A DNA stretch of 42,288 nucleotides, from positions 1 through 42,288 of IMG/VR virus record IMGVR_UViG_3300028908_000019; one strand, written 5' to 3'. The stretch's first letter is position 1; the number at the start of each line of letters is the position of its first letter. Made by a program: the position numbers and the translations under genes. Below the pieces are notes generated by a model, which searched no databases, was not told the origin of the DNA, and worked only from the letters and a program-made list of their open reading frames with translations. Shown one piece after another: positions 6,355 to 42,288 of the stretch. This DNA is from a virus.

Positions 6355-6963
6355 CTACTTCTCCAATGATTTAAAATAACTATCAGGCATGTGTTGCTTT
6401 ATTGAAAACTTCCACCATTTCTCAGGTTCCCCAATATGTTTAGTAGCAATATTTTTCATATACCAAAACGGTAATTGTGGAACTATATCATTACCATTTA
6501 CTACATTAATTAATTTTGTAAGATTTGTGCCACCACCATAAACTAATCTTAGTATAAACACGTCACAACCACTCTTTTCTGCCAACACTCTTGGAGCACC
6601 AAAGGTGTATGTATGTATAGTCAAGTTTCGGTAATGAAATCGCAAATCTTCGTGTGCTAGGATACACAAAGCCCCGCCTAAACTATGTCCTACTAAAGAA
6701 ACCTTCTCCGCTTTTTTGCACGCATCTAAGACTATATCTCGCACATTTTTGTATTGTCTTAAAAATCCGCCATGAACATAAAACGGTTGTTCCATATCTT
6801 TATACGGGATTACGTAGAAGTTTAAAAGCCAGTCTATCCAATCCATACTGCCTTGAAAGGCTATTAAAACCTCATTGCCATTTTCTTCAATAGCATACTG
6901 AGTCTCTCCTACGGATTGCCAATTTTGGTAAAGTGCTTTTTTAAGAGCTTGTATTAGGTTCAT
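6355..6963 (-). CDS. Class 3 lipase (alpha/beta hydrolase)
   Basis: 202 residues with the nucleophile elbow VGHSLGG (Ser94), the TFGAPRV strand typical of lipase class 3, and likely Asp159 (NGNDIVPQ) and His176 completing a triad. There is no signal peptide or lipobox. It lies between the tail fibre and the rest of the lysis cassette, with AGGAGG before its start. By analogy with mycobacteriophage LysB esterases it may attack envelope lipids at lysis; the substrate is unknown. Confidence 0.85.
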   Translation of the reverse strand: MNLIQALKKALYQNWQSVGETQYAIEENGNEVLIAFQGSMDWIDWLLNFYVIPYKDMEQPFYVHGGFLRQYKNVRDIVLDACKKAEKVSLVGHSLGGALCILAHEDLRFHYRNLTIHTYTFGAPRVLAEKSGCDVFILRLVYGGGTNLTKLINVVNGNDIVPQLPFWYMKNIATKHIGEPEKWWKFSIKQHMPDSYFKSLEK

Positions 6964-6971
6964 AAAGCCTC

Positions 6972-8633
6972 CTACTGTTTCTTTCTAACTGCTATTAGCC
7001 GTATTTCTAAAATACCCAAATATGTAGATGCAATCGATGTTACAGTCCCACCACTAGCTTGATACAATTCAAATAGCACAGATTGCCCTTTTGTTAAATC
7101 ATATATTAAACTTCCTTGAGCGGCATTGCTACCAAATGTTGATGCAACCAATTTTTTTCTAACACCATCTACAAACAAATCTATTTCCATCCCATAGGAA
7201 GTATCAAGTGCTAACCCTGCTCTGATTTCATACGTCCCAGATATAGGGACAGTGAAAGTTCCGGTAGCCGGGTCATAAGCAGAATGAGAATCAGTTATTT
7301 CATTAGCCCATTTAACTACAGTAAACCCGCCACTACTAAATGTTTGCCCTCCGCCATCCGTAGCAGATACAACAACAGTTCTAGCATCATGTTGTACTAC
7401 TTGCCAGTTTCCATTAACTGGTGCTAACTTAATTACTTCTCCATCCCCTTCTAAATACCAGTTACTAGCAGGTTCTCCGTTTATTGTCTGTGCCCCTGTG
7501 CCGGGGTCGTATGTACTAAACAATACTTTCCCTGCCCCACTTCCTGTTCTCCAATAAGTGCGTTCTGCCGTCTGCCCATTAGCATCGGGAAGGTTTACCG
7601 TAACATCAGTTGCATCTGTGATTTCATACTTTGCTCTGATAGGTGCTAATTCATTTAGCACACCTTCTACATTGTCATTCTTGAGTAGCCCTGCTGAATC
7701 TTCCACATATATTTTAGATGCCTCAAGTTTGCGCCAAGCTGTAGGCGATGTATCTGGTTGATTGTCAATATTAGTATTAATCAAAGAAACATAAAATATT
7801 CCGCCATATTGAACTATATCATTAATATTATAGGTTTCATTTGATTGCCATACAGTGCCGCCGGAAATATTAACTATCGTCCAATTTGTAGTATCCGTTA
7901 ACGGATCATTGCCTTTGTTATTATTAACAAGTGACTTATAGAAGTTCCCTTGTCTAGTTACGACTTCATATTGATTATATGTTATGCCTTCTTGCCATTC
8001 AGTACCAAATGAATTATAAATCTCCCAAGCCGCTGTAGCAACACCGGGTTCATTGCCTATATTATTATCTATGAGTGATTTATAAAGCACTCCACCATGT
8101 TGTGTTAATTCACCGCTAGAGTACGTGTGAGCCGGGATCCAGTATTTCGGAGGCGCCCCGGGATAAGGCTCTACATCTCCGTTAGAATCAAAATACAAAT
8201 ATGTATTCTTTCTGGAGTCTTTATTCGGCAATTCCATCTCGCCGGTATCAGATAACGGCAATCTAAGCGCCCTATTCATTTTCTCGTTTAGCGCCTGCTC
8301 TATCATTATTACTTTATCAAATAAAGATTCTAAAACATTTGCAGGATAATTGGATCTAGGCTTCAAGTCTGTATCCTGTGTTAACTCAACATCTCTATAA
8401 AGAGTTAATGTGCCATCAGCTTTTGCAGTCACTAATGTTATATGCCCGCCTGAGTCATTACCAGCTCCGGAAACTGTATAATCCGTCCCTTCGGTCAAAG
8501 GATATTCAATACCGTTTGTATCAGTCCAAACCACTTTTAAATCAGACGATTTTACTATTTTAAATGTATATACATATTCTGTTACACTGCTACTGCAAAT
8601 ATGATTTGTAACTGCATTGGTAGTAGGAACCAT
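6972..8633 (-). CDS. Tail fibre with T7-type N terminus, repeated CBM-like modules and C1q-like tip
   Basis: 553 residues. Residues 15-125 match the virion-anchoring N terminus of short tail fibres (TDYTVSGAG, LTLYRDVELTQDTDL, RALRLPLSD). Three modules of ~42 residues (about 163-204, 211-252, 260-301) share W..G.TY...D.V...G..Y.SL..NN and resemble carbohydrate-binding modules 5/12. The C terminus (from about 415) is Gly-rich beta structure like a C1q/TNF head (TGTFTVPISGTYEIRAGLAL). It probably binds the host surface. Start preceded by palindrome copy 3 and GGGAGG. Confidence 0.85.
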   Translation of the reverse strand: MVPTTNAVTNHICSSSVTEYVYTFKIVKSSDLKVVWTDTNGIEYPLTEGTDYTVSGAGNDSGGHITLVTAKADGTLTLYRDVELTQDTDLKPRSNYPANVLESLFDKVIMIEQALNEKMNRALRLPLSDTGEMELPNKDSRKNTYLYFDSNGDVEPYPGAPPKYWIPAHTYSSGELTQHGGVLYKSLIDNNIGNEPGVATAAWEIYNSFGTEWQEGITYNQYEVVTRQGNFYKSLVNNNKGNDPLTDTTNWTIVNISGGTVWQSNETYNINDIVQYGGIFYVSLINTNIDNQPDTSPTAWRKLEASKIYVEDSAGLLKNDNVEGVLNELAPIRAKYEITDATDVTVNLPDANGQTAERTYWRTGSGAGKVLFSTYDPGTGAQTINGEPASNWYLEGDGEVIKLAPVNGNWQVVQHDARTVVVSATDGGGQTFSSGGFTVVKWANEITDSHSAYDPATGTFTVPISGTYEIRAGLALDTSYGMEIDLFVDGVRKKLVASTFGSNAAQGSLIYDLTKGQSVLFELYQASGGTVTSIASTYLGILEIRLIAVRKKQ

Positions 8634-21515: not shown

Positions 21516-21771
21516 TGTAACCTCCTAATAAAGATTGTATTATTGATACTTCCTTCCCTTCCTCCCAAACTCCTAAATTCCTTAATATTCTCTTTGCGGC
21601 ATTTATTAATGCAATATCTTCCGCAGTCTCGATATTTTCCTCAAAAAACTTTAAATCATGTAAAATGTGTATCAAAACGTGTCTAGTAACTTCATCTCTA
21701 TTGAATGTATGCTGATAATCGTTGTGTATTTTTGCTTTATCTTCAATTTCTATCCTGTCTTTAAACCACAT
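21505..21771 (-). CDS. Bbp19-like conserved hypothetical protein, 88 aa
   Basis: A small helical protein between portal and scaffold, overlapping both (11 bases each). The FNRDEVTRHVLIHILHDL segment and AAKRILRNLGVW end resemble the small protein at this location in BPP-1-like phages (Bbp19 family). Function unknown. Confidence 0.6.
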   Translation of the reverse strand: MWFKDRIEIEDKAKIHNDYQHTFNRDEVTRHVLIHILHDLKFFEENIETAEDIALINAAKRILRNLGVWEEGKEVSIIQSLLGGYNGR

Positions 21772-23380
21772 TGCCTTGGCCTCCTGCGTTTTCTTTATTA
21801 ACTTTTAAAATCTGAGCCAATTGGCTCATCATTTCGCTATTTGCTTGCTGTTCTTGCCTAGCTTGCCGTATAGCATCAACCTTTTTATCATCATTTACCA
21901 AATCTACCGGGAAATTGTTATATTCAAGTATTCTCCGGCCTAACCCGTCCCAGTCTATTAAATCAATAGTATCTTGTTTGAATTGCGGAATAGGTGAAAA
22001 ATCTATAAGTGCCTGCTTTAACATCCCGCCTTTGGCTACTCTCTGCTGTAATTGTGCTAGAACACTAAAATAATCTATTTTCAAGCCTTTGCCTAGTTTG
22101 CCGTCAGCTTCTAACAGTTTTTTTGGCGGTGGCGGGAGACGCTTTTCTTCAATTTCTATCTCCAACACCCGTTCTAATATCTTATCTAGCCCCTCAGACA
22201 AGAATTTTGATATTGGAGTAGATAACATGAGCATTTTTTCACCCTGTCTTTCCTCTACCTCAACCGTGGTCATCCTTTTCGTAAGGTTACTAAGCACCAT
22301 AAAAAAGTCTATGTAAAAATGATTTCTAACACTTTCGTCTTTTATCCTATATCCATCAACCGCACCTTGATAAATATTGCCTATTTTCCAAGGCTCAACA
22401 AACCTGCCCTGCTGTTCATAATAATTTGCACCATGCGGCTTGTATCTAACACGCCCTTTTAACTCAATAGGGATATTAACCGGAGGATCCGAGCTTATTA
22501 TTTGACCTTTCAAAATATATCTTGCCATTTGATTCATCCATTTCACGTCACCTAAAGCATCCCCGCCGGGTCCTGTGCCATAATCACTCTTGCTATCAAC
22601 CCTGTACCGCCATACTCCAAACGGGAAAGTTATATATCCACCTATTTGCGCTATAGCATCTTCGCCTACTTGCTTATATATACTTAAATAGTTCTTGCCC
22701 GCTGGCAAATACTTTGTTAAAAACTTGTCATAGCTGTCAACAAACATTACCGCATGAATAAAATCAAACTCTCTATTAGGCGTTTCATCTGCGGCTTTTA
22801 TGATTTCTTTACTTAACCCGGTTGGCTTAAACCAATTTATAGCATCAATGGCTTTTATTTTTATTTTTCTAAATACCGTATCAATATCACCATGCATATT
22901 ACTGCTTATATAAGATTCAAGCGGGTGAATAACCTTAAAATACGGCTTGCCCTCATTCGGGTTATTACCAACAAACATTGTTGTAGTGCTTATAACAACG
23001 CCAATATGCGTATATCTCTGTAAAGCATCGTAGAAATTGCTCCTTGCAAGTTGCGCCAATACATGTAAAGTTGCATCATATAACCATTTTTTAACTTCTA
23101 GGTTCTTCATAAGCTCATCATCTCTGGGTTTATAAAACAACCACCTAGAATCTTTAGGGGCGATGTATGCAGTAAGCCCGTCTGCCATCTCTCTAGCATA
23201 AAAAATCGGCCTCGAGTCATCAGGTGTCTCGTAATCTTCATTGTCCCCGCTATCAAACCCTACTAAAAGGTCTGGCATAAGATATTTTGCAAGCTCTTTC
23301 CACTTTTTTTCTCGCTTTTTACGCTTATCTACCAGTTGACCAAACCGATTTTCAATATATTCTGCTAATTTATTTTTCAT
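21761..23380 (-). CDS. Portal (head-tail connector) protein
   Basis: 539 residues with the podovirus portal pattern: ARE-M-DGLTAYIAPKDSRW near residues 60-85, THIGVVISTTTMFVG, PFGVWRYRVDSKSDYGTGPG and a Gln-rich C terminus (IRQARQEQQANSEMM). It forms the dodecameric ring for DNA packaging. Preceded by palindrome copy 5 and GGGGGTGA, which acts as ribosome site. Confidence 0.92.
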   Translation of the reverse strand: MKNKLAEYIENRFGQLVDKRKKREKKWKELAKYLMPDLLVGFDSGDNEDYETPDDSRPIFYAREMADGLTAYIAPKDSRWLFYKPRDDELMKNLEVKKWLYDATLHVLAQLARSNFYDALQRYTHIGVVISTTTMFVGNNPNEGKPYFKVIHPLESYISSNMHGDIDTVFRKIKIKAIDAINWFKPTGLSKEIIKAADETPNREFDFIHAVMFVDSYDKFLTKYLPAGKNYLSIYKQVGEDAIAQIGGYITFPFGVWRYRVDSKSDYGTGPGGDALGDVKWMNQMARYILKGQIISSDPPVNIPIELKGRVRYKPHGANYYEQQGRFVEPWKIGNIYQGAVDGYRIKDESVRNHFYIDFFMVLSNLTKRMTTVEVEERQGEKMLMLSTPISKFLSEGLDKILERVLEIEIEEKRLPPPPKKLLEADGKLGKGLKIDYFSVLAQLQQRVAKGGMLKQALIDFSPIPQFKQDTIDLIDWDGLGRRILEYNNFPVDLVNDDKKVDAIRQARQEQQANSEMMSQLAQILKVNKENAGGQGNVV

Positions 23381-23415: not shown

Positions 23416-24032
23416 CACTTTTTGTCAGCATCTTCAGCCATTTTTTTTAACACATCAGGCGTTACTTGACGTTTCCACGCCTTATTTGAGTATAAATTAT
23501 GATCAGTCGCATAAGCGACATAGGCATCCCATGTATCTTTATCAAGAAAACCATAATCCGGTTTCTTCAGATACCCTAATTCTTGTAACAAAATTTGCAT
23601 ATAGGTAACTGTTTTTGCGTATTTTTTGTCTCTCGGCTGGATTTTTATAGGGTCATATTCTATCGGCACAAAATCACTCTTTTTTGTGCTCTGTACCTTG
23701 CCCCATTCTTCTTCGTCGGGGTCTATCGTAAATGCACTATCAATAATTTCTTTCTGCTTCGCCATCGGAATATTTACACTCCCCGTAAAAGCATCACTTT
23801 TTTTTGCCTCGGTTTCATATTGCCAGTTATACAAGTCCCGCTTTATACTCTCACTTAAAGAATCTTTGCCTAAAATGCTTTTTATTGCATCATCTAATTT
23901 CATGATCCCACTTTTAACAACATTCTCAATTTTTGATACAACACTCCCGAATAAATCTTCCGGCAAATTCCACCTGTTAAATTGCTCTCTTATTTTGTGC
24001 ATATCTTCATTTTTTAATAACGGTTCTCCCAT
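23415..24032 (-). CDS. Virion-region protein with C-terminal peptidoglycan-binding-like domain
   Basis: 205 residues from ATG 24032, which has GAGGTG five bases upstream and shares TGATG with the terminase stop. The first ~140 residues are charged and unrecognised. The C terminus (YMQILLQELGYLKKPDYGFLD, then KDTWDAYVAYATDHNL) has the helix pattern and LGY..G motif of the PG_binding_1 fold. It may be a head/portal-associated protein with cell-wall binding; the domain call is tentative. Confidence 0.55.
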   Translation of the reverse strand: MGEPLLKNEDMHKIREQFNRWNLPEDLFGSVVSKIENVVKSGIMKLDDAIKSILGKDSLSESIKRDLYNWQYETEAKKSDAFTGSVNIPMAKQKEIIDSAFTIDPDEEEWGKVQSTKKSDFVPIEYDPIKIQPRDKKYAKTVTYMQILLQELGYLKKPDYGFLDKDTWDAYVAYATDHNLYSNKAWKRQVTPDVLKKMAEDADKK

Positions 24033-25612
24033 CACTTCACCTCATATACATTATAATCTTCTTCATCAGGAAAATCATCAAATATTTTGTTAGATTTTAT
24101 ATTGGCCACGTTAGGGAATACAACAAGAGCATCTTTGTGATTAATTTGCGAAAGCGCATCTAGCATATCATCATGCTCGGCATACGGATAGTCAATAAAC
24201 TCGTCCTCTACAAACTGCTTGATAGTATTTACTCTATTGCCTTCCCAGTCATTATGAATACACTCATACGGTAAAATAATCCGCCCTTGCTCAAATATCG
24301 GTACCAAAGAGTTTATTCTTTGCTTTTTCGGCAAAGATTTGCTAAGCGGAGTTATGAAAAATCTATAATTACGTTGCTCCATAACATACTCGATATGTTC
24401 AATATCTGCTTGCATAGAAACTTTTTCATACCCTATAAACATCGGATGAAACCTCATATGCAATAAGAATAACATATTTGTACGTTCTGTCAAATTCATC
24501 TTATCTCTTATCAAATCAAACACATAAATATTCCTGTCAAGCCCTAGCCCCAAAGCCCACATTACAGTATAATCGGCATCTCTCGATTTTGTCCCGGACG
24601 GATCAACTAAAATTATAAAATTAAAATTTTGCATTTCTTGAGTTGGATTCCAAAATCTCAACCAAGACTCTTTAAATCCGCTATATCTTTCTTGCTTCGG
24701 GTCAAGTAACATCTGCGTTGCAAATACGTAAGGACCCATTAGCTTACGTTTATGGTCTAGCGTCTCTTTTGACATAAAAACAGGTTCGCCGTCAGGTGTG
24801 CCATCTTTTGTTGCAGGGTATTTTCTCAGCTTTAAAACATTCTTTTTTAAAATTGCAAAATATGTATCTGCATGATGATAAAAAGTCCCTAAATGCCATT
24901 GCCGGCCACTTGGAGAATTTTCATCGCCTGCTGCGAGATTTTGACTAAGCTCCCATCCTCTGGTAGCTTTAGCTCGCATAGTTTCCGAGTTTGCACTGCG
25001 TTCCTCGATAATATCATCATAGACTCTTAATTTAAAATGTTTTGAAGTAGGCTGTCCATCTATTAAGCCCCATGCTTCAAGGGTACTCTCTTTAGGGTTG
25101 CCCTTGCGCTTAACTACAAGCCCTGCATCCTCACTCCATTTAAACCCTAGCCGTCTCGAGTCCCTAATCGGATCAGGCCATAAAATATCACTATATAGCC
25201 ATTTTAATAATCTGTTACTTTCAAACTCTTTTTTTATCTGTCTCAAGAATGTTTTCGCTATAGGGCGGGTAAAACTAAAAATTGCAATTGTAATTTCAGG
25301 GTCTTTTATGATTTCTTGAATAATCCCGGCAAAAGTAATAATTGTGCTTTTGTAGTGCTCCCTTGCCCATATATCAAGATAACCGTCCGGATCCGCTTCA
25401 ACTTCAAGACACCTGTCTAAAACCCATTGATTGCGTGCATCATTCCTGCGCAATATCCTAGTAAGCAAAAAATACCTATCATGCCTCCCCAAAAATCTAA
25501 GCACTTCCCAGTATTCGTCCTTCTTCCTCGCCTTCGTTATAATCCACGCATACTGATTATCTCTTTTTTGCTTATTATCACTCAGCGCCTTTATATCCTC
25601 TAGCTTAATCAT
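24032..25612 (-). CDS. terL: Terminase large subunit
   Basis: 526 residues. The ATPase part has a deviant Walker A (WAREHYKST, near residue 85), a Walker B-like LRVYDDIIEE, and the nuclease part has the first acidic motif in FIILVDPSGTKSRDAD and a later HDD motif (YPYAEHDDMLDALSQ). It powers DNA packaging and cuts concatemers. It is the first gene of the reverse operon. The predicted -10 lies only six bases before the ATG, so the mRNA may be leaderless; no good ribosome site is visible. Confidence 0.93.
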   Translation of the reverse strand: MIKLEDIKALSDNKQKRDNQYAWIITKARKKDEYWEVLRFLGRHDRYFLLTRILRRNDARNQWVLDRCLEVEADPDGYLDIWAREHYKSTIITFAGIIQEIIKDPEITIAIFSFTRPIAKTFLRQIKKEFESNRLLKWLYSDILWPDPIRDSRRLGFKWSEDAGLVVKRKGNPKESTLEAWGLIDGQPTSKHFKLRVYDDIIEERSANSETMRAKATRGWELSQNLAAGDENSPSGRQWHLGTFYHHADTYFAILKKNVLKLRKYPATKDGTPDGEPVFMSKETLDHKRKLMGPYVFATQMLLDPKQERYSGFKESWLRFWNPTQEMQNFNFIILVDPSGTKSRDADYTVMWALGLGLDRNIYVFDLIRDKMNLTERTNMLFLLHMRFHPMFIGYEKVSMQADIEHIEYVMEQRNYRFFITPLSKSLPKKQRINSLVPIFEQGRIILPYECIHNDWEGNRVNTIKQFVEDEFIDYPYAEHDDMLDALSQINHKDALVVFPNVANIKSNKIFDDFPDEEDYNVYEVK

Positions 25613-25708: not shown

Positions 25709-26101
25709 ATGGCATTGTTACCTGAACGTAGAACTCCGACGGTTCAAGAGAGGGTTGACAAGGTAATTGAGTTAATAGCTCAAGGGTATAAGCGGAAAGG
25801 GATACATGAGTGGATACAGAAGAACACTGACTGGAATATTAGCAAGGCGACGATAGACACGCTGATAAAGAAGGCAAAGACTGACATTCACCGCTTTGCT
25901 AAGCTATCGGATTTTGAATTTTTGAATGATGCAATTCTGAATTACAAATTCCTGTATAAGCGGGCAATAGATAATGGAGACATCAAAGTTGCATTGCAGA
26001 TCCAAAACTCTTTAAGCGAAATGCTTAATCTCCAAGAAGTAGCTCGTAAGCGTTTCAGCCCGGACCCAAAACCAGTCGACAAAGATTTCCTAGTAAGTTA
26101 A
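25709..26101 (+). CDS. Terminase small subunit-like DNA-binding protein
   Basis: 130 residues from ATG 25709; a GTG six bases earlier is too close to AGAGGAGG. Residues ~15-50 form a helix-turn-helix (IAQGYKRKGIHEWIQ, then ISKATIDTLIKKAKTDIHR), followed by a helical hairpin (LNYKFLYKRAIDNGDIKVAL) typical of small terminase proteins that recognise the packaging site. Divergent from the large subunit, which is unusual. A regulator role cannot be excluded. Confidence 0.65.
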   Translation: MALLPERRTPTVQERVDKVIELIAQGYKRKGIHEWIQKNTDWNISKATIDTLIKKAKTDIHRFAKLSDFEFLNDAILNYKFLYKRAIDNGDIKVALQIQNSLSEMLNLQEVARKRFSPDPKPVDKDFLVS

Positions 26102-26114
26102 TAATATCTCTTTA

Positions 26115-26149
26115 TATAATAAGGTCTCTATTAAAGAGACCTTATTATA
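26115..26149 (+). terminator. Terminator hairpin after small terminase gene
   Basis: A perfect 15-bp stem with a 5-base loop (arms 26115-26129 and 26135-26149, GC-rich centre AAGGTCTCT / AGAGACCTT). It begins 14 bases after the stop. Followed by an AT-rich stretch rather than a clean T-run. Confidence 0.65.
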
Positions 26150-26303
26150 ATATTCTACCTACTCTATTATAATAATATTACCAGTAACCTTATTATTATA
26201 AATAGCCTTTATTATACTAAATACTCTTATTATCTACTTATGCATCTTGAAAAACGACACACGTGTCGTTTTTGGCCGAATTCTGTGGATAACCTGTGGA
26301 TAA
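26150..26303. other. Candidate replication origin: AT-rich stretch and two DnaA boxes
   Basis: 26150-26249 is strongly AT-rich and includes a long imperfect inverted repeat (26164-26205). Two exact DnaA boxes follow, each TGTGGATAA (26284-26292 and 26295-26303), spaced 11 bp so on the same helix face. A palindrome copy (26250-26273) separates the AT-rich part from the boxes. Layout resembles a DNA-unwinding element beside a DnaA array; function inferred. Confidence 0.55.
26250..26273. repeat. Dispersed 24-bp palindrome, copy 6 (origin region)
   Basis: A5-CGACAC-AC-GTGTCG-T5. Unlike most copies it is not followed by a ribosome site or gene; it lies 10 bp before the first DnaA box. Confidence 0.85.
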
Positions 26304-26381
26304 TTTACGGCAATTCAACCAAATTCTTGAATTTTCACTGCCTCGCCGCTAATCCTAAATGCAAAGATACCATAGCCCTAC

Positions 26382-26498
26382 TAAGTATCCAAATATAAAA
26401 ATAGACCTAAACGTCCCAGACATCATGGCAGACTAAATCAGTTAGGTACCCAGACATCATGACATGCTTAAATGTTTAGGTATCCAGACACAAAAACA
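26382..26498. repeat. Iteron-like direct repeats
   Basis: Units of TTAGGTAYCCAGACATCATG: CCAGACATCATG begins at 26416 and 26450, and a diverged CCAGACACAAAA at 26484, giving a 34-bp period. A weaker first unit (TAAGTATCC) is at 26382. Between units are short inverted repeats (CTAAATCAGTTAG; CTTAAATGTTTAGG). Such arrays near DnaA boxes usually bind a replication initiator; the winged-helix protein at 2556 is a candidate. Confidence 0.55.
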
Positions 26499-26510
26499 GC
26501 CTTCTCCACT

Positions 26511-26820
26511 GTGGCATAGAGGCCACGCTGGGGGTTAAGGGGCATAAGGCCGAACAACATAGGAGAAATTTCTCCGGGAGATAAATAATAACAACCTAGC
26601 CCCCAAAGAACCCACTCCGATAAACCACAACACCTAGTAGATGGGCTTAATTACATAAGGCCACACCCCTGTCGGGGACTTAGATATTGCCTCAACCCAA
26701 GAAAGAGGCTCCAGACCACACAGGGCCCCAATACGCCTAACGGTCTCGAGCTACAAACTACGCAATATAGCCCACCACCCACCCCACAACCTAGCGTTAT
26801 ATATCCAAAAAGATAACGGT
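26511..26820. ncRNA. GC-richer structured segment without genes; possible large ncRNA
   Basis: No convincing ORF on either strand and visibly higher GC than surrounding genes. Hairpins include GTGGC-6-GCCAC (26511), a long stem 26529-26540 with 26595-26605 enclosing GGAGA-AATT-TCTCC (26562), CCCC-TGTC-GGGG (26666), GCCTC-11-GAGGC (26689) and CGTTAT-12-ATAACG (26795). A GC-rich, multi-stem, gene-free block in an AT-rich phage is typical of a large structured RNA, but it could be origin DNA structure. Strand undetermined. Confidence 0.4.
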
Positions 26821-26846
26821 AGAGCGGGTTAGCAGGGACTATGGGT

Positions 26847-27060
26847 TAGGAGAGGGGAGGAGGATACACGAAGACGAACAAAACGAAAAGGAATGAAAAG
26901 AAAGAAAACGGAATGAAAGGAAGAAGGGAACAATGAGGTTTATTGGTATAAGGGACACAATAGGAGTAATAGTAAATAGGATAAGAGGGATTAATAAGGA
27001 TTCAGCGGCGGATAGATAAGAATACGAAGAAAAATAGAAATTTTATGAAAGTGTATAAAA
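26847..27060. other. Purine-rich, gene-poor tract
   Basis: The + strand is dominated by A and G for about 200 bp (for example AGGAGAGGGGAGGAGG near 26847, then repeated GAAAGGAA-type runs). The only ORF I see is a doubtful 28-codon frame at 26933-27019. It could be an mRNA leader rich in ribosome-site-like sequence, or part of the origin. Confidence 0.5.
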
Positions 27061-27069
27061 AATCATACC

Positions 27070-27093
27070 AAAAGCGACACGTGTGTCGTTTTT
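27070..27093. repeat. Dispersed 24-bp palindrome, copy 7
   Basis: AAAAG-CGACAC-GT-GTGTCG-TTTTT; the single arm change gives a G-U pair in RNA, so the hairpin is kept. It is followed by GAGAAGGAGG, the ribosome site of the gene at 27109. Confidence 0.85.
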
Positions 27094-27108
27094 GAGAAGG
27101 AGGTTTAT

Positions 27109-27267
27109 ATGAAAGACAGTGATTTTATCGAGGATAGAATAGACTTATACGGAGAGGAGGTGATAAGAGAACTAGTTGAAAACGACTTAATAGAGTTCTA
27201 CGATTATCTAAACAACACAACAATAAGGAGTAAATATGGAAAGGTTCAAAGTAACAATCAAACATAA
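27109..27267 (+). CDS. Small acidic early protein, 52 aa
   Basis: Starts MKDSDFIEDRIDLYGEEVIR. Acidic and helical in its first two thirds, unrecognised. A strong AAGGAGG precedes it and palindrome copy 7 lies upstream. It overlaps the next start by 32 bases. Confidence 0.6.
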   Translation: MKDSDFIEDRIDLYGEEVIRELVENDLIEFYDYLNNTTIRSKYGKVQSNNQT

Positions 27268-27403
27268 TGGACTAACTATTAAAGCGATTATTCAAGGATT
27301 TTCGGCGATGCAGGTTAAAGAGCAATTAGAGAACTCATCATTTGTTGAGCAGTATAAAATCTATTGCTCACAACCGGAAATCACGGAAATAAAGAAAATC
27401 TAA
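27236..27403 (+). CDS. Hypothetical protein, 55 aa
   Basis: Starts MERFKVTIKHNGLTIKAIIQ, with AAGGAG upstream. Probable small alpha/beta protein; no family recognised. The next gene follows after GGAGGGG at the stop, so four short genes here form an early operon ending in the truncated SSB. Confidence 0.6.
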   Translation: MERFKVTIKHNGLTIKAIIQGFSAMQVKEQLENSSFVEQYKIYCSQPEITEIKKI

Positions 27404-27413
27404 GGAGGGGAAA

Positions 27414-27539
27414 ATGGAATATTTCCTAGTAGTAAAAAACAGTATGATAATCTTAACGACAACCAATCTCGGGTTTGCAAAAAAATACGCCTTAGAACAT
27501 AAAGCAATATTATACAGGGCAACAATAATAAATTATTAA
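27414..27539 (+). CDS. Hypothetical protein, 41 aa
   Basis: Starts MEYFLVVKNSMIILTTTNLG with AGGAGGGG just upstream. Too short for family assignment. Tight spacing with the next gene (TAAGGAGG) supports translation. Confidence 0.55.
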   Translation: MEYFLVVKNSMIILTTTNLGFAKKYALEHKAILYRATIINY

Positions 27540-27549
27540 GGAGGAAAAT

Positions 27550-27855
27550 ATGAATGACAAAAACAAAGTCCAGCTAGAAGGACGCCTAACAAAGGACGCA
27601 GAAGTTTCTTACCTAGAAAGCGGAACCATGCTTGTTGCTTTCACGCTAGCCAACAACTACTACATCCCGAGAGGCGAAGGCAACTACGAGCAAAGAGTAA
27701 ACTTTATAAGAGTAGTGTCTTTTGGAGAAAGAGCTGAAAAGTACGCAAAACTAGGAAAAGGCGAGAAAGTAGAGATCGAGGGCGTAATCAGAACTTCTCA
27801 ATGGGAAGAACTAGACGGTACCCGGCGATATTCTACCTACGTGCAAGCTATGTAA
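27550..27855 (+). CDS. Second SSB-like protein, truncated OB-fold (no acidic tail)
   Basis: 101 residues with SSB motifs (LEGRLTKDAEVSYLESGTML; RVNFIRVVSFGERAEKYAKL; KVEIEGVIRTSQWEELDGTR) but ending at STYVQAM, where SSBs normally continue to the last strand and a disordered tail with acidic tip. A long inverted repeat begins two bases after the stop. It shares the fold of the SSB at 3275 but is clearly divergent. It may be a defective copy or a specialised tailless SSB. Confidence 0.85.
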   Translation: MNDKNKVQLEGRLTKDAEVSYLESGTMLVAFTLANNYYIPRGEGNYEQRVNFIRVVSFGERAEKYAKLGKGEKVEIEGVIRTSQWEELDGTRRYSTYVQAM

Positions 27856-27856
27856 T

Positions 27857-27976
27857 GTTTTGCCACGCTGAGTGTTACATGCGCTTGCAACTTTGCAAAA
27901 TAGTCACTCTAACCAAAGACGGCATAAAGAAAAGAGCGACTAACAAAGGTGCAAGCACAAACCAGCGTGGCAAAAC
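27857..27976. repeat. 120-bp long imperfect palindrome after truncated SSB
   Basis: Outer arms of 14 bp are perfect (GTTTTGCCACGCTG / CAGCGTGGCAAAAC). Inner blocks continue the hairpin with one mismatch each: GCTTGCAACTTTG with CAAAGGTGCAAGC, and TAGTCACTCT with AGAGCGACTA. The whole folds into one long bulged stem with a ~22-base loop. GTGCAAGC also occurs just before it (27841). It may be an inserted element that truncated the SSB gene. Confidence 0.7.
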
Positions 27977-28036
27977 GGCTTCAAAGGATAAGGAACGCAA
28001 TTTTCATGCCAACTTATACTAAACATTTGTTAGTAT

Positions 28037-28081
28037 TTTTCTATGTAAAATATAATATTTTTCTATATTTTACATAGAAAA
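28037..28081. repeat. 18-bp perfect inverted repeat abutting a promoter
   Basis: Arms 28037-28054 and 28064-28081 (TTTTCTATGTAAAATATA and its complement) with a 9-base spacer, four bases upstream of the -35 of the promoter at 28085. Too AT-rich for a strong terminator; an operator is the better guess. Confidence 0.7.
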
Positions 28082-28084
28082 GTA

Positions 28085-28113
28085 TTGACAAACAGTAGAA
28101 AAGAGAGTATACT
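28085..28113 (+). promoter_or_regulatory. Strong sigma-70-type early promoter
   Basis: TTGACA, 17 bases, TATACT, then AGGAGG at 28127 and ATG at 28138. Same hexamers and spacing as the promoter at 25632. It should drive the hairpin-rich gene block. Confidence 0.8.
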
Positions 28114-28137
28114 AAAAGAAAAAACTAGGAGGATGAC

Positions 28138-28563
28138 ATGATAGTAAACTTTTTTGGATTGACAAAGGAAGAAATCGCCGCTATAAAAGCGGCGATGGAG
28201 AAAGAGCACCAGCTATATTTCGCAACTGATTATGGATACACCGAAACGTACCCAGAACCTGCCTTCCCAATTAAACTTGAAGAAAATGAAGAGTACCCTT
28301 GCGGGTACTTTTCAGACAAAAATTTTTTTGGCTGGCTCCGTGCAGTCAGCGGAGCATTTTTAACTGTCTTCCCCTCTACAGGGGAAGCGATTTTCTCGGG
28401 GAGAAGGCATAGCCTTCTCACCCTTCTAGACCTTTTCCCGGAGATTTCCTGTCTCCGGAATAAACCCTTCGAGTACATAGAAACTCGTAGGCAAGACCTA
28501 CATCCATTCAAAACAACAACCCACCGCAGAGGAGAGGCAGAAAATGAAAGAAATAGAATATAA
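28138..28563 (+). CDS. Hypothetical early protein, 141 aa, hairpin-rich gene
   Basis: Start fixed by AGGAGG and the promoter. The first ~60 residues look like a normal small acidic protein (MIVNFFGLTKEEIAAIKAAM). The second half has an odd, Arg/His-rich composition and is encoded by a string of perfect hairpins (28292, 28335, 28368, 28401, 28438). A frameshift or non-coding use of the 3' half is possible. Overlaps the next gene by 20 bases. No family recognised. Confidence 0.6.
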   Translation: MIVNFFGLTKEEIAAIKAAMEKEHQLYFATDYGYTETYPEPAFPIKLEENEEYPCGYFSDKNFFGWLRAVSGAFLTVFPSTGEAIFSGRRHSLLTLLDLFPEISCLRNKPFEYIETRRQDLHPFKTTTHRRGEAENERNRI

Positions 28564-28908
28564 TTATAAATTCAACCTTCCCGTATGGGAAGGAGTAGAC
28601 TCGGAGTATTCCGAGTCTACAGAAAAATTAATAGGCTCTGAAATAGAGCCTATTAAGCTGTACGAGATAGATGAAACTACCCAGTACAGTAAAAACGGTC
28701 TCGACGTCTATATCGAGACCGGATGGCTGGTAAAACAACAAGGGAAATTTTTTGTGGTCGAAACCCGCGAAAGCGGTTACGACCACGAGCAAGCAGGGAG
28801 AGAAATCTCCCACTCATGGGAAGCATATTTTATGGAAAAAACCATTCAAATTGACCGAGTTAAAGCAAAATAACTCGGTCTAAAAACATAGCTCCCCGCA
28901 AGGGGAGC
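28174..28908 (+). repeat. Cluster of perfect stem-loops within coding sequence, block 1
   Basis: Perfect arms (stem/loop): 28174 8/7, 28292 7/4, 28335 6/9, 28368 8/4, 28401 8/3, 28438 7/7, 28576 7/4, 28595 11/4 (GTAGACTCGGA), 28628 12/5 (TTAATAGGCTCT), 28696 9/8, 28754 7 enclosing CCGC-GAAA-GCGG, 28796 6 with GAAA loop, 28853 10/8 across a stop codon, 28891 7 with GCAA loop. My rough estimate for stems of 8 bp or more in random sequence this long is well under one. Confidence 0.85.
28544..28873 (+). CDS. GSEIEP-domain early protein, single copy, 109 aa
   Basis: Unrecognised family defined by two motifs: GSEIEPIKLYE (residues ~31-41) and GWLVKQQGKFFVVET (~60-74). The same pair occurs twice each in the proteins at 29888 and 30579, so this is the one-domain member. 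Acidic; no membrane segment. The GSEIEPI motif is encoded by a 12-bp perfect hairpin. The stop codon lies inside another 10-bp hairpin (28853-28880). Confidence 0.7.
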   Translation: MKEIEYNYKFNLPVWEGVDSEYSESTEKLIGSEIEPIKLYEIDETTQYSKNGLDVYIETGWLVKQQGKFFVVETRESGYDHEQAGREISHSWEAYFMEKTIQIDRVKAK

Positions 28909-28933
28909 GAACAAGAGAAGGGACAAGGGGAAG

Positions 28934-29010
28934 AAAATAGCAGGGCTATTTGCCTGTGCCAAAGCAGGAGCAACAGCACAGGGGAAACAAATAGTCCTGC
29001 TATTTTTTTT
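28934..29010 (+). terminator. Strong intrinsic terminator with very long stem
   Basis: A stem of about 26 pairs: AAAATAGCAGG with CCTGCTATTTT, a G-T pair, CTATTTG with CAAATAG, a 5-base bulge, then CCTGTGC with GCACAGG. It is followed by eight T. It ends the transcript of the two genes from the 28085 promoter. Confidence 0.9.
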
Positions 29011-29042
29011 GACAAAATACAAAATACAAGGAGGAATAAAAA

Positions 29043-29465
29043 ATGATAAACCTAAAAAAGGTAGCGGAAAATGCAACGCAAAAAAAGTTGGAAGAGGTCG
29101 GGATAGACCTTTCCAAATATGAGAAATCGGAGGAAGGATTTTTGGCTTTCATCCGCGACTGGCAAAAAATCGCCAGAAACAGAGAGTTGGCACTCGAAAA
29201 AAAGCGGTTATTAAACCGCTATCCAGAGTATCTAGGGATAGTCGGCAACTATTTTGGGACACCCGATTTTGTCGGACTGTTCCACCGGAAATTTTGGGAA
29301 ATCATCGACCAGAAAACGCCCGTCCCATTCGACACCAACGGATACAGATTTGAAATCACTCAAGGGTGGTCTGAAAAATATCGGAGATTCACGTATGCTG
29401 GTCAATTTGCATTCGTGATCGACGTCGTTCTAGACGTCCTTGCCAGAGAGGAGAGTGTCAAATGA
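29043..29465 (+). CDS. Hypothetical early protein, 140 aa
   Basis: Start after AAGGAGGAAT. The first half is charged helix (KKVAENATQKKLEEVGIDLS), the rest mixed with several aromatics. No family recognised. The gene holds further perfect hairpins (for example AGCGGTT-ATTA-AACCGCT at 29203 and GACGTC-6-GACGTC at 29421). It overlaps the next start by ATGA-like coupling. Confidence 0.65.
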   Translation: MINLKKVAENATQKKLEEVGIDLSKYEKSEEGFLAFIRDWQKIARNRELALEKKRLLNRYPEYLGIVGNYFGTPDFVGLFHRKFWEIIDQKTPVPFDTNGYRFEITQGWSEKYRRFTYAGQFAFVIDVVLDVLAREESVK

Positions 29466-29788
29466 ATTTACAAAAAGTAGCGCACCTGTCTAAAAAAATT
29501 AGCGTAAGAAACTTTAATAAAAATACTAAGTATCACTGTGACAACTATACGTTGTCACATGGGAACGGAAAGTGGAGATTATTTTTGAATGGGGTCTTCG
29601 TTATGAACGAAGATTACCCCAAATTCTTTGAGATTGTCGATACTTTTCAATGGTATCGACAACTCACCCCAGAGCTCTACCAGTTGGTAGAGCTCCCAGA
29701 CAATCCAGAGGAAGAGGAAAGGCGTTTTTTCGAACGCCCCCTGGAGGAAGTGTTAAACGAATACCGCACTCCCTCTACCAAAGTATAA
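29462..29788 (+). CDS. Hypothetical early protein, 108 aa, hairpin-rich
   Basis: Starts MNLQKVAHLSKKISVRNFNK; the N terminus (MNLQKVA) echoes that of the preceding protein (MINLKKVA). Acidic C terminus (ELPDNPEEEERRFFERPLEE). Unrecognised. Four perfect stems of 8-10 bp lie inside the coding sequence. Confidence 0.65.
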   Translation: MNLQKVAHLSKKISVRNFNKNTKYHCDNYTLSHGNGKWRLFLNGVFVMNEDYPKFFEIVDTFQWYRQLTPELYQLVELPDNPEEEERRFFERPLEEVLNEYRTPSTKV

Positions 29789-29819
29789 CACAAAACCGCT
29801 CAACAAATGTTGAGCGGTT
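29537..29819 (+). repeat. Cluster of perfect stem-loops, block 2
   Basis: 29537 TGTGACAAC, 9 bp, loop TATAC; 29595 TCTTCGTT, 8 bp, loop ATG, extended by GGGG/CCCC; 29634 TTGTCGATAC, 10 bp, 9-base loop; 29672 GAGCTCTACC, 10 bp, loop AGTT; 29721 GGCGTT, 6 bp; and 29794-29819 AACCGCTCAAC, 11 bp, loop AAAT, after the stop codon, terminator-like but with no forward T-run. Confidence 0.8.
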
Positions 29820-29887
29820 AAAAAATAGCGCCATACGAGATTATTGTTGACGATATGGTGCAAATAAACAAAAACAGGAGGAAGAAG

Positions 29888-30544
29888 ATGCAATTCAATT
29901 CAGACTATTATCTTGAAATTTTAGAAGGGGAAACTACAAATTATGAAACCCCAATAAGAAAGATGATCAGTTCAGATATTCCACCAATAAAATTGGTGGA
30001 ACAGAACAACCCTAAAAAAAATGATGAGGGGACAAGATACTATAAAAATAACACTATAAGCTGGTTAATAAGTCAACAAAACAAATGGTACATAATCACG
30101 CAAAAAGAAAAAGGATATATAAATTATGGATCGTGGCCAATATTCTTTTCGTGGACAACAAGAAAACTCAACCCCACAACACTTGACCCAGAATACAAAT
30201 CCGACTTTTATACAATTATGCACGAAGAAATAGAAATCGAAACAGAATGGGATGCCAAATTTTACATAGAGGAAAAGAAAATCTATTCAGATACTCCACC
30301 AACAGAACTCTTTAATCACAAAAAAAATTTTAAAAGAGAATGCCCTAATGGAATAAATGTTTTTGAACAACGAGGAATAATAATTACACAAAACGGGCTA
30401 CCGGTTCTCATCATTGAAACAAAAACAGGGAGAGATGACGAATTTGGAGAAGTAATCACATACTCCCAAGATTTTATAAAATTACCTAGAACAATCTGGC
30501 AATATAAAAAAACAGCTAATATAGAAAAAATAACTATTGGATAA
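29888..30544 (+). CDS. GSEIEP-domain-family protein, two diverged copies, 218 aa
   Basis: Start at ATG 29888 after AGGAGG; an upstream in-frame ATG lacks a ribosome site. Copy 1 has SSDIPPIKLVEQ and SWLISQQNKWYIITQ; copy 2 has YSDTPPTELFNH and GIIITQNGLPVLIIET. These align with the GSEIEPIKLYE and GWLVKQQGKFFVVET motifs of the gene at 28544. Function unknown. A 10-bp perfect hairpin (29979-30001, loop AAA) again encodes the first motif, but with different bases. Confidence 0.7.
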   Translation: MQFNSDYYLEILEGETTNYETPIRKMISSDIPPIKLVEQNNPKKNDEGTRYYKNNTISWLISQQNKWYIITQKEKGYINYGSWPIFFSWTTRKLNPTTLDPEYKSDFYTIMHEEIEIETEWDAKFYIEEKKIYSDTPPTELFNHKKNFKRECPNGINVFEQRGIIITQNGLPVLIIETKTGRDDEFGEVITYSQDFIKLPRTIWQYKKTANIEKITIG

Positions 30545-30578
30545 AAAATAACAAAATAAACAAAAACAGGAGGGTAAA

Positions 30579-31409
30579 ATGGAAATAACCAAAAAAATAA
30601 AGAAAAATTATCCTTACGCATTGGAAGTTATAGCAGAAGAGAGTAATGATCTTGACATCTTCTGTTATGAAAAAACTTTTATTGGCTCTGAAATAGAGCC
30701 GACAAAAATATATAAAGTCAATGAAGAATATGATGGTTCGATGTTTTACGACTACATAACAAGAGAAGGGTGGTTAGTTTCACAAGAGTGGAAATACGAC
30801 GAGGGGAAATACCACGAGGGGCAATACATCATAGTTCAAACAGCCAAGAAAGAAAGAAAAAATACAGACTTTGAAGATGAAACGGAAAGATGGTGGAATG
30901 CACATACTCTCGAACCCCTCAAAGAAGAACTGCAAAAAGACGGCAAATATTCATTGTCACTCCTTTCAGGCAACTCCACAGAATGGGAGACGCCAAAAGA
31001 AATTTCTATAGGCTCTGAAATAGAGCCAATAAAAGTATATGAAAACGAATTTAGAAGATACCCATACGTAGAATGGGGCAACGGATGGACATATATAGTC
31101 CAGAAAGATTGCGGATATATAATACGCCAAAATGGGGCGTACTATATAATAATTCAAATAAGAAAAGAAGAACCTCCAACAGAATATAGAAAACCGGAAT
31201 ACTCTTACTCTATAGTATTCTGTGAGTTAACCATGTTTTCAAAACTTATCGACAAAGAGGCTAAGATAAATTTTCCCAAAGTAAAAGACAGATATGAAGA
31301 TATGTTTTCAAAAAAATTATTAAGAACCCCTAAGCATTTAATAGGGGAAAGGATAAAATACACAAAAGAGGAGAAACATGAAATATCATATAACAAAAAA
31401 AGGGAATAA
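30579..31409 (+). CDS. GSEIEP-domain-family protein, two copies plus C-terminal extension, 276 aa
   Basis: Start after AGGAGGG. Copy 1: IGSEIEPTKIYKV and GWLVSQEWKY; copy 2: IGSEIEPIKVYE and GYIIRQNGAYYIIIQ. Both copies carry GGCTCT-GAAAT-AGAGCC hairpins encoding GSEIEP (30684, 31011). A basic C-terminal tail follows. It overlaps the next gene by 32 bases. Tandem domain duplication in an early phage gene is typical of host-takeover or anti-defence proteins, but no function can be assigned. Confidence 0.7.
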   Translation: MEITKKIKKNYPYALEVIAEESNDLDIFCYEKTFIGSEIEPTKIYKVNEEYDGSMFYDYITREGWLVSQEWKYDEGKYHEGQYIIVQTAKKERKNTDFEDETERWWNAHTLEPLKEELQKDGKYSLSLLSGNSTEWETPKEISIGSEIEPIKVYENEFRRYPYVEWGNGWTYIVQKDCGYIIRQNGAYYIIIQIRKEEPPTEYRKPEYSYSIVFCELTMFSKLIDKEAKINFPKVKDRYEDMFSKKLLRTPKHLIGERIKYTKEEKHEISYNKKRE

Positions 31410-31635
31410 AATCCCCATCTCAAAAATGGATGATTTGCATTTAATAAACACAATAAAATATCTAAAAAAACTTGCAGAAAAAGGCATAGTAATTAGAAGC
31501 GGCGGCGGATCTACCCCAGAAGACTTTTGGTATGAAGAACGCATAATTAAAGGGGAAGAAGCGCTTAAAGCATTAAACTTTGCAGAATACCTCTGTGAAG
31601 CAAAAAAAAGAAAAATCTTAAGGAGGCAAACATGA
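31378..31635 (+). CDS. Hypothetical early protein, 85 aa
   Basis: Start after GAGGAG. Basic helical protein (MKYHITKKGNKIPISKMDDL) with a Gly/Ser turn in the middle. Unrecognised. Stop overlaps the next start (ATGA). Confidence 0.6.
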   Translation: MKYHITKKGNKIPISKMDDLHLINTIKYLKKLAEKGIVIRSGGGSTPEDFWYEERIIKGEEALKALNFAEYLCEAKKRKILRRQT

Positions 31636-39118: not shown

Positions 39119-40426
39119 ATGTTAGGAAACATAACAGTCTTACAAGTAGAAAACATCAAGAAAATCAAGTACCTTGACCTAAAGCTGGACCCAAAAGGCG
39201 AGCTGATAAAGGTCGAGGGGCCGAATGATGCGGGGAAATCTTCATTGCTTGATGCTATTAGATACGCATTTGAAGGCGGAGAAATTCCGAAAGATGTAAT
39301 AACTCACGGCGAAAACAAAGGAACCGTGAGGATAGAAACATCCGGCGGGTGGATAATAACAAAAACAATAAGAAAGAATAAGAAAGGAGAACAGGTTACA
39401 GAATTAACCGTTAGAAACAAAGACGGATTTAAAGAAAAGGCACAAACCTTCTTGAAAGAATTTTCGTCAAAATTCATTGATCCAACAAAACTTATAGACA
39501 TGAATCCAACTGATTTGTCTAAAGCAATATTTGAAATATTTAAGCTGGATTTTGTAGAAATTGATAATAAATTATCTCAGACAAAACTTGATTTAAAAGT
39601 TATAAGAAAGCAGTTAAAAGAACTCGGCGCAGAACCAGAAAAGCCAGAAATAACAGAAGGCATTCCAAACACAGAACAGATACAAGCAGAATACAACGAA
39701 GCAAACAAAGAATTTTACGAAAAGAAAAACGAAATTGATAAAATCAATGATAGAATTGAATTGAACAAAGAATTAGTTGAACAGAACAAAGAAACCATTG
39801 AAAATCTTAAACAGAGAATAGCGCAACTAGAAAAAGCAAATGCAGATATGGAAGAGCAAGTTAAAAAAGATATTGAAACTCTTAACGGCCTGCAATGGGT
39901 AATCGGCACATTAACTGCAAAGATTAAGAAATTGGAACCTCAATTAAAGCAGATAAACGAATATTCAGAATTGAAAACAAAACTCAATTTATACAACGAG
40001 TGGAAGAAGAAAAAAGAATATCTCGATTCCTCTTATGAAAAACTATCCAAGCAGCAGAAACAACTTGAGGAACAAAAGAAGCAATTGATAAAACAATTGG
40101 ATTTACCAATTGAAATAACTGATGATGGTATATTCTATAACGGTGATAGATGGGAAAATCTCTCAACCTCAACAAAACTTACATTAGCCGTCAATATGGC
40201 AATAAAGGCAATCCCGGATGATGGAGCAAGAATTTTATATATGCAAAGAGGGGAAAGCATAGGCAAAGAAAAACTAAAAGAGATAATCCAGAAAGCCTAT
40301 GATAATAATATCCAAATATTTATGGAAGTATTCCGTGATGACACGGAAGGCATAAAAATTATAAAGGAAGGAGTAGAAGATGAAGAGAACTTTTTTGACA
40401 ATTCTGCTGATGATGATTTGTTTTAA
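39119..40426 (+). CDS. SbcC/Rad50-like AAA ATPase, compact
   Basis: 435 residues: Walker A GPNDAGKSS (34-42), a coiled-coil arm from about 155 to 335 and a C-terminal ATPase lobe (WENLSTSTKLTLAVNMAIKA resembles the signature helix). The expected Walker B aspartate is replaced by RILYMQRGES, so ATP hydrolysis may be altered. Acidic tail (DNSADDDLF) resembles an SSB-type tip. It lies one base after the Cas4-like nuclease and probably partners with it. Confidence 0.85.
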   Translation: MLGNITVLQVENIKKIKYLDLKLDPKGELIKVEGPNDAGKSSLLDAIRYAFEGGEIPKDVITHGENKGTVRIETSGGWIITKTIRKNKKGEQVTELTVRNKDGFKEKAQTFLKEFSSKFIDPTKLIDMNPTDLSKAIFEIFKLDFVEIDNKLSQTKLDLKVIRKQLKELGAEPEKPEITEGIPNTEQIQAEYNEANKEFYEKKNEIDKINDRIELNKELVEQNKETIENLKQRIAQLEKANADMEEQVKKDIETLNGLQWVIGTLTAKIKKLEPQLKQINEYSELKTKLNLYNEWKKKKEYLDSSYEKLSKQQKQLEEQKKQLIKQLDLPIEITDDGIFYNGDRWENLSTSTKLTLAVNMAIKAIPDDGARILYMQRGESIGKEKLKEIIQKAYDNNIQIFMEVFRDDTEGIKIIKEGVEDEENFFDNSADDDLF

Positions 40427-40844: not shown

Positions 40845-41146
40845 TGTTAGTACAGGAATATAACTCAGTTGCAAATACAATCAACAGCTTGCACAATAAA
40901 ATTGTAGAAGGTGCTAAGAATGTTCTCGCCGATATAGTAGAAATCGGCGAGATGCTAACTAAAGTAAAAGAAATGACAAAACACGGAGATTTCATAGGAT
41001 GGGTAGAAAGAAACCTTACGTTCTCTCCACGTACAGCACAAAGATACATGAAAGTATATGAGAACAGAGAGAAAATAAAAAGTATAGATGTTGACAAACT
41101 CTCAACAGCTTATAAGCTACTCGAAACTCCAAGTTCTAAGAAGTGA
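40844..41146 (+). CDS. DUF3102-type protein, N-terminal part, then divergent end
   Basis: Starts MLVQEYNSVANTINSLHNKI. Residues 1-95 are the DUF3102 domain with its HTH. From 41128 the sequence differs from the left-end copy, giving the short ending TPSSKK at 41146. In the circular phage genome the frame should continue into 1-516 (230 residues). The stop here is therefore probably an artefact or a variant joint. Confidence 0.75.
   Translation: MLVQEYNSVANTINSLHNKIVEGAKNVLADIVEIGEMLTKVKEMTKHGDFIGWVERNLTFSPRTAQRYMKVYENREKIKSIDVDKLSTAYKLLETPSSKK
41021..41132. repeat. Right copy of terminal direct repeat
   Basis: 41021-41127 equals 1-107 base for base; 41128 is T where the left copy has C. Phage-like sequence ends here. 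What follows differs in composition and content. Confidence 0.9.
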
Positions 41147-41625
41147 CCTGCTAGAAGGGATTAAAAGTTATAATAATCGCATATGGGCATTAAATTTTGG
41201 CGGTTTATTACTGCGAGATGTACCATTAAAGATAATATTTAAAGGATATTCTTATCGTGTGATGAGTTTGTTGATCATCGTATTCCGGTGATTGCATAAA
41301 TTGGATATCTTTCTTTATCGTGAAGAGATAATGATTAAACAAAGGTGAGATGCTAATAAATTATACGAGGGTGAATTTCTGCTAAAGGATTACCTTTGTC
41401 AAATTTAGGATTTAGGTTATGTAACTTTTGTTTTTAATTCTGTAACTTGAGTTATGTTTCAAGAAATGTTGGTTTGGATTAGGAAATGTCTTGCTATTAC
41501 TGTTCATGTTATTTTTTTGTTATATAAGTAATTGTGTCCTTGGGGTGAGGTTTTTCACGGATATTTCTTTCTTGGCATATTGTTTGCTTCTCAGTTTACA
41601 GATTATACCTCGAGGAGGATTTGTT
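41147..41625. other. Non-phage flank without a convincing gene
   Basis: About 480 bases of T-rich sequence. One frame gives DVPLKIIFKGYSYRV and another, shifted, DEFVDHRIPVIA, which could be a frameshifted remnant of a small protein, but neither is complete. Nothing else is recognisable apart from a possible promoter at 41573. Confidence 0.5.
41573..41588 (+). promoter_or_regulatory. Possible sigma-54 promoter
   Basis: TGGCAT-N5-TTGCT, with GG and GC 10 bases apart, matches the -24/-12 consensus. The expected start is near 41599, before GAGGAGG (41612) and the lipoprotein ATG. A single short match, so chance is possible. Confidence 0.35.
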
Positions 41626-42269
41626 ATGGATAGAAAGATTGTGTTTTGTGATGATTTTCTTAAGCTACATCTAAGACGCTACTTATTATTAACATTATTA
41701 ACCTCTGCTGTGGTGATCGGTATGCTTTCTGGGTGTGCGACTATTATGAATGGTGATCGACAAAGTATCAGTTTCGAGACCAAACCGAGTGAGGCTAAGA
41801 TTACTATTTATGATTCGCATAATATGATTGTATGGAGTTCAAAAACACCTACTACGGTTTCTCTAAAGAGAGGGAGTGGTTATTTTCAGGGCTAACAACA
41901 TAAAAAGTATCCGGTCGTCGTTCGGGGGTTTCTCTAAAGAGAGGGAGTGGTTATTTTCAGGGAGCTACTTATATAGTTAAAATCGAAAAAGATGGCTATG
42001 TTAAAAAAGAATTTCAGATTACAAGTACTTTAAATGCCGGGTGGTACTTAGTTGGGAATTTTTTTCTGGGAGGGTGGATTGGGTGGCTTATAGTAGACCC
42101 TATAACTGGTGCAATGTGGAATCTTACACCGGAAAAAGTATCGCTTGTTCTTGAATCGGGAAAGGTCTCTTCTCCTTTGCCTAAAGATAATAATGTGCTA
42201 TTTATCGTTTTGCGAAGCCAATTTGATGATGAACTTTTTAATAGATTGCACCCTCAGCGGATAAATTAA
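41626..42269 (+). pseudogene. PEGA-like lipoprotein gene, frameshifted by 71-bp partial duplication
   Basis: Starts at 41626 after GAGGAGG. Signal peptide with lipobox LSGC, then ATIMNGDRQSISFETKPSEA, as in small outer-membrane lipoproteins with PEGA-like repeats. The frame stops at 41895. Removing 71 bp restores it: the frame resumes at 41928 and continues ATYIVKIEKDGYVKK...NFFLGGWIGWLIVDPITGA to 42269. This is a bacterial, not phage, gene. It may be a real mutation or an assembly error. Confidence 0.65.
41856..41962. repeat. 36-bp direct repeat with 35-bp spacer breaking the lipoprotein gene
   Basis: 41856-41891 equals 41927-41962 exactly (beginning GGTTTCTCTAAAGAGAGG). The spacer 41892-41926 begins CTAACAACATAAAAAG and has no obvious origin. 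The 71-bp offset shifts the frame and introduces TAA at 41893. Confidence 0.85.
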
Positions 42270-42288
42270 TACTCTGTGGATTGAGACT

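Follow-up and report, generated by a model that had tools for sequence, protein, structure and literature searches.

Perfect short hairpins at the head of an early operon in a podovirus-like phage

Why would a run of small protein-coding genes in a DNA phage be filled with perfect short inverted repeats? An initial annotation of the window, i.e. the whole IMG/VR virus record IMGVR_UViG_3300028908_000019 (42288 bases), described about twelve perfect stems of 8-12 bp with loops of 3-9 bases in four adjacent genes, and named template-switch repair, selection for mRNA stability or nuclease resistance, and a role of the RNA itself as possible causes. Here we show that the hairpin excess is real, local and independent of codon usage, and that it recurs in a related phage in genes with no detectable homology to those of the window.

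Genome context and gene layout

The window is the genome of a podovirus-like dsDNA phage, with its tail genes on the minus strand; the plus strand carries the early and replication genes. Because bases 1-112 are repeated at 41021-41132 (99%), the genome map probably closes as a circle at ~41.0 kb. The last 1.15 kb (41133-42288) is surplus to this map and contains a lipoprotein-like ORF and a direct repeat of 36 bp whose copies are 71 bp apart. An SbcC/Rad50-like P-loop ATPase (39119-40426; phrog_1499) is also encoded in this phage, which is rich in inverted repeats. A near-identical palindrome, AAAAACGACAC(A/G)CGTGTCGTTTTT, is present in eight copies (137, 4649, 8644, 17668, 23390, 26248, 27068, and 32058), mostly at gene borders and on both strands; a search of IMG/VR for an exact match found none, and the element could be an operator or stoperator-like site.

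Features of the early operon are summarized in Table 1. No Pfam families were found for the four ORFs of 28138-29788, and their PHROG matches were all sub-significant (best E 0.027). An AlphaFold model of the GSEIEPIK paralogue family, to which the second of these ORFs belongs, had a pLDDT of 35 and gave no information on the fold.

Table 1. Features of the window and of the related phage G1. Perfect stems are numbered in the order in which they occur; z values labelled "codon" compare folding with codon shuffles.
Feature	Position	Strand	Remarks
Head-tail connector	21761-23380	-	PF12236
Terminase	24032-25612	-	
Nested inverted repeat upstream of promoter	27856-27976	+	folding z -4.7
AT-rich 18-bp palindrome	28037-28081	+	abuts promoter
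Promoter-like TTGACA-17-TATACT	28085-28113	+	head of hairpin-saturated operon; consensus match only
ORF, 141 aa	28138-28563	+	hairpin-saturated; no family match; codon z -6.1
Perfect stem 1, ATCGCCGCT-ATAAA-AGCGGCGAT	28174-28196	+	
Hairpin	28287-28314	+	11 Watson-Crick pairs and one G-U; loop TTGC
Perfect stem 2, CTTCCCCT-CTAC-AGGGGAAG	28368-28387	+	
Perfect stem 3	28401-28419	+	8 bp, loop 3
ORF, 109 aa	28544-28873	+	GSEIEPIK paralogue family; strongest folding of any window gene; codon z -8.8
Perfect stem 4	28595-28620	+	11 bp, loop 4
Perfect stem 5	28628-28656	+	12 bp; encodes LIGSEIEPIK; conserved with covariation in paralogues
Perfect stem 6	28696-28721	+	9 bp, loop 8
Hairpin GTGGTCGA.../...CGACCAC	28754-28786	+	inner GAAA loop
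Perfect stem 7	28853-28880	+	10 bp; straddles stop codon of ORF 28544-28873
Intergenic hairpin	28891-28908	+	7 bp, GCAA tetraloop
Intergenic long bulged stem, then T-run	28935-29009	+	terminator-like; each arm also self-foldable
ORF, 140 aa	29043-29465	+	not saturated; no stem of at least 8 bp; codon z -3.0
ORF, 108 aa	29462-29788	+	hairpin-saturated; codon z -6.1
Perfect stem 8	29537-29559	+	9 bp, loop 5
Perfect stem 9	29595-29613	+	8 bp, loop 3
Perfect stem 10	29634-29662	+	10 bp, loop 9
Perfect stem 11	29672-29695	+	10 bp, loop 4
Perfect stem 12, intergenic	29794-29819	+	11 bp, loop 4
ORF, paralogue of 28544-28873 protein	29888-30544	+	two degenerate repeats; not saturated (z -1.3); single hairpin at 29979-30001
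ORF, downstream paralogue	30579-31409	+	two GSEIEP repeats; hairpin cores GGCTCTGAAATAGAGCC at 30684 and 31011
G1 promoter-like TTGACA-17-TATAGT	L004:5392-5420		consensus match only
G1 AT palindrome			12-bp arms; abuts candidate promoter

Hairpin density and folding

Counting perfect stems of at least 8 bp with loops of 3-9 nt gave exactly 12 between 28174 and 29819 (stems 8-12 bp, loops 3-9 nt), in agreement with the number first noticed by eye, and 200 dinucleotide shuffles of 28138-29822 gave a mean of 0.33 and a maximum of 2, so that the original random expectation of about 0.2 was a fair one. The best 1-kb stretch of the window holds 9 stems. Codon shuffles that keep the protein did not reproduce these densities: at least 8-bp stems numbered 3 against a mean of 0.20 in ORF 28138-28563, 3 against 0.12 in ORF 28544-28873, and 4 against 0.22 in ORF 29462-29788. 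Folding energies agree with the counts, with codon-shuffle z scores for the four ORFs (Table 1) set against a mean of -1.65 (sd 1.43, lowest -4.4) in 19 control genes. Over the 909 nt of 28122-29030, folding reached -344.6 kcal/mol versus -221 when shuffled (z -12.4), and the excess over shuffles in the hot region averaged 48%, rising to 74% in one 400-nt window.

The excess has clear limits. The folded stretch spans ~27.85-29.82 kb with a gap at 29.04-29.53, and is not pervasive over the genome: 30002-41000 contains 4 stems versus 3.0 in shuffles, and the late genes 10 stems in 21 kb versus 3.7, several of them copies of one repeated intergenic palindrome. The lower density of the late genes, which the initial annotation had judged by eye, is thus borne out, and neither of the outcomes it named as refuting, similar density in codon-preserving shuffles or the same density throughout the genome, was obtained. 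Its description of the block itself needs some correction. Three of the four genes described as saturated do exceed their codon shuffles, the exception being ORF 29043-29465; ten of the 12 hairpins have their arms within coding sequence, the others being stems 7 and 12; of the tetraloops placed in genes, GAAA is found there as the inner loop of a coding hairpin and the GCAA hairpin is intergenic; and the folded stretch begins upstream of 28138, at ~27850.

Recurrence in a related phage

The GSEIEPIK family (28544-28873, 29888-30544, and 30579-31409) led to one distantly related phage, IMGVR_UViG_3300028908_000004 (39444 bases; G1 below), which was the only one found when further relatives were sought by scans of viral and genome contigs; no close relatives of the window's saturated ORFs were found among the contigs scanned. 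G1 and the window are 24-37% identical in connector, capsid, and tail genes, 76% in the tail fibre, and 94% in the lipase, and several early genes are common to both. The lipase and tail fibre (6355-8633) are far closer between the phages than connector and capsid (31-33%), a likeness that would point to a shared host or an exchanged module.

A separate hairpin block is present in G1 at 21.25-22.4 kb, with 9 stems per kb; the ORFs that contain it show no detectable homology to those saturated in the window. The saturated genes of G1 have z scores of -9.5 and -6.1 versus codon shuffles, and its folding excess over shuffles is 33%. Both blocks start behind a TTGACA-17-TATA(C/G)T candidate promoter and fade within ~2 kb, and in each phage the -35 box is directly adjoined by an AT palindrome. 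The homologues that lie downstream in the two phages contain few perfect hairpins, although two of them still fold above codon shuffles (30579-31409 in the window, z -6.9; 24372-25136 in G1, z -6.6). Since the G1 block occupies non-homologous ORFs and the homologues downstream are poor in hairpins, saturation tracks operon position and not gene identity.

Two further observations concern the G1 locus. Directly after the promoter lies a GC-rich, apparently non-coding structured leader (L004:5425-5740; z -3.9) with no match in Rfam, and iteron-like repeats of CAGTACGTT are found between the saturated genes (L004:6391-6450 and 7127-7156).

Candidate causes and known systems

Only hairpins with short loops, roughly 3-14 nt, are in excess, and this is true of both blocks. 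Stem GC is 55% in the window and 62% in G1 versus a background of 33-38%, and window loops are 27% GC with a commonest length of 4 nt. Pairing around translation starts is lower than at randomly chosen places in the blocks (0.47 versus 0.71, p 0.0002). The GSEIEP hairpin, compared across seven copies, has 88% of its cells paired. In three pairs both partners have changed, in every case at third codon positions (e.g. GGC..GAG to GGT..GAA), and the covariation score of the hairpin is 0.202 versus 0.106 when shuffled (3/500), with lower values in slid controls; template switching could also be the source of these double changes, and seven related copies are few.

Because the stems are GC-rich with short AT-rich loops, ribosome-binding sites are less folded, covariation is synonymous, and the block recurs at the same locus in non-homologous genes, a role as folded mRNA or nucleic acid fits best among the three causes originally proposed. 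We give a probability of about 0.5 to the reading that selection on the folded nucleic acid, most likely mRNA, maintains the first ~1.7 kb of the early operon as a chain of stable local hairpins that at the same time encodes small accessory proteins. The stems themselves may have arisen by template-switch repair of imperfect inverted repeats, which would supply perfect ones; selection would then keep the promoter-proximal early mRNA self-folded. We infer that mRNA rather than DNA is the molecule that folds and that folding shields the early transcript between synthesis and translation, with host or defence ribonucleases (including single-strand-specific ones), annealing RNAs or RNA guides, Rho, and R-loop formation as the agents from which it would be shielded. 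The hairpins have no sequence or loop motif in common, apart from one that is protein-encoded, which makes a specific RNA-binding role unlikely.

Several families of explanation were rejected. No Rfam match above gathering score was obtained for the whole window (sub-threshold hits only), which removes known structured RNA families; mobile palindromic elements of the RPE, REP, or integron attC type do not apply since all stems differ and the window stems show no direct-repeat excess; and slippage is dismissed since direct repeats are not enriched in the window. Those in G1 are mostly one local repeat.

Strand evidence for mRNA as the folding molecule is weak, and some of the observations that speak against it also favour a rather unlikely but substantial rival, in which the stems are a mutational by-product and the RNA has no function. 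During replication, a polymerase would switch template within imperfect inverted repeats and copy one arm back as the reverse complement of its partner. Perfect hairpins would in this way accumulate in a switch-prone stretch, located near an origin or exposed as single strand where a strong early promoter lies. Perfect hairpins with short loops are known to arise and persist by template switching (PMC8794818), which also homogenises inverted-repeat arms and rewrites coding genes (PMC8604942). In keeping with this, most stems are perfect Watson-Crick helices, and G-U is absent from 12 of the 15 in the window. G-U accounts for only ~5% of helix pairs in the window, and for 8% in G1, with no clear excess over A-C, and GNRA loops show no sense-strand bias. 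Sense and antisense folding are nearly equal in the hairpin block; this holds equally for MS2 and Qbeta, and the energies of the two strands therefore do not discriminate between RNA and DNA causes. Pairing is even across codon positions and the three registers, with no preference for the third position, from which it follows that the amino-acid sequence itself has been bent, by strong structural selection or by blind arm-copying. Mutation alone, however, requires that one and the same local hotspot exist in two diverged phages whose genes there differ. Nor does it on its own account for the combination of GC-rich stems and AT-rich loops, the bias of window loop-closing pairs (C-G 9, G-C 0; no such bias in G1, 7 to 5), or the less folded translation starts, though purifying selection could add the last of these.

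A function at the DNA level, in which cruciforms or single-strand DNA hairpins close to the early end of the genome would serve e.g. its entry, the start of replication, or packaging, would account for the symmetric folding of both strands and the few G-U pairs. The block also adjoins a ~1-kb non-coding stretch that separates terminase from early genes in both phages, and folding in the window extends upstream of the promoter. Known DNA-hairpin systems consist of few, sequence-specific hairpins, however, whereas those found here have no common sequence, and in G1 saturation begins only downstream of the promoter; we regard this explanation as improbable. It is very improbable that the hairpins form an array of intrinsic terminators or attenuators, some of them antisense and insulating early from late transcription. 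In favour are 19 terminator-like hits in 26000-31500 against an expectation of 5.4, the majority of them minus-strand, and a single clear T-run where the stem near 29009 ends, but most hairpins have no T-run on either strand. The antisense form of this idea was rejected, since A-tracts upstream of the hairpins show only marginal enrichment in the window (p 0.023) and none in G1 (p 0.94).

If the folded mRNA is indeed under selection, the coding sequence of a DNA phage has ordered structure like that of an RNA virus, in its first transcripts only, which points to a pressure on phage mRNA early in infection. A broader version, that a dsDNA phage lineage selects promoter-proximal early mRNA as self-folded as an RNA-phage genome whatever genes lie there, as generic armour or insulation against RNA-directed host defences, is tentative and has the odds against it. 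If the stems are mutational, they mark a strongly localised template-switch hotspot that writes protein-coding genes, and the origin of perfect RNA stems becomes a directly testable question.

To place the block among known systems, we surveyed ten records (T7, lambda, T4, N4, LE1, HTVC100P, Riverbug, phiX174, MS2, and Qbeta; 50 kb of some), in which the best 1-kb window held 0 to 4 stems versus 9 here, a rarity that applies to these ten only. The promoter hairpins of the N4 virion RNA polymerase, which also lie in a podovirus early region, are few and short and share a consensus, whereas the window stems are 8-12 bp without one, and N4 itself has no cluster (best 2 stems per kb). RNASIV subVOGs are local conserved RNA elements in viral orthologous groups (PMC6563262) and likewise overlap viral coding sequence; the window ORFs, in contrast, match no PHROG family, and their structure is conserved by place and not by homology. 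Hairpins made by template switching (PMC8794818, PMC8604942) share with the window perfect inverted repeats with short spacers, also in coding genes, with homogenised arms, but are reported as scattered single events, whereas in both the window and G1 GC-rich stems saturate a block at the same locus. A likeness in kind links the block to the genome-scale ordered RNA structure (GORS) of RNA viruses and to the folded genomes of Leviviricetes (MS2, Qbeta), where chains of local hairpins run through coding sequence well beyond what composition predicts, as they do here, with coding-sequence folding far below randomised controls. GORS is pervasive over whole genomes or transcripts, unlike the ~27.85-29.82 kb found here, and no RNA replication is known to require the window structure. 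Folding excess is 27% in MS2, 27% in Qbeta, and about -1.5% in the T7 early region; the 1.7-kb early operon of this dsDNA phage, at 48%, exceeds both RNA phages and has longer perfect stems.
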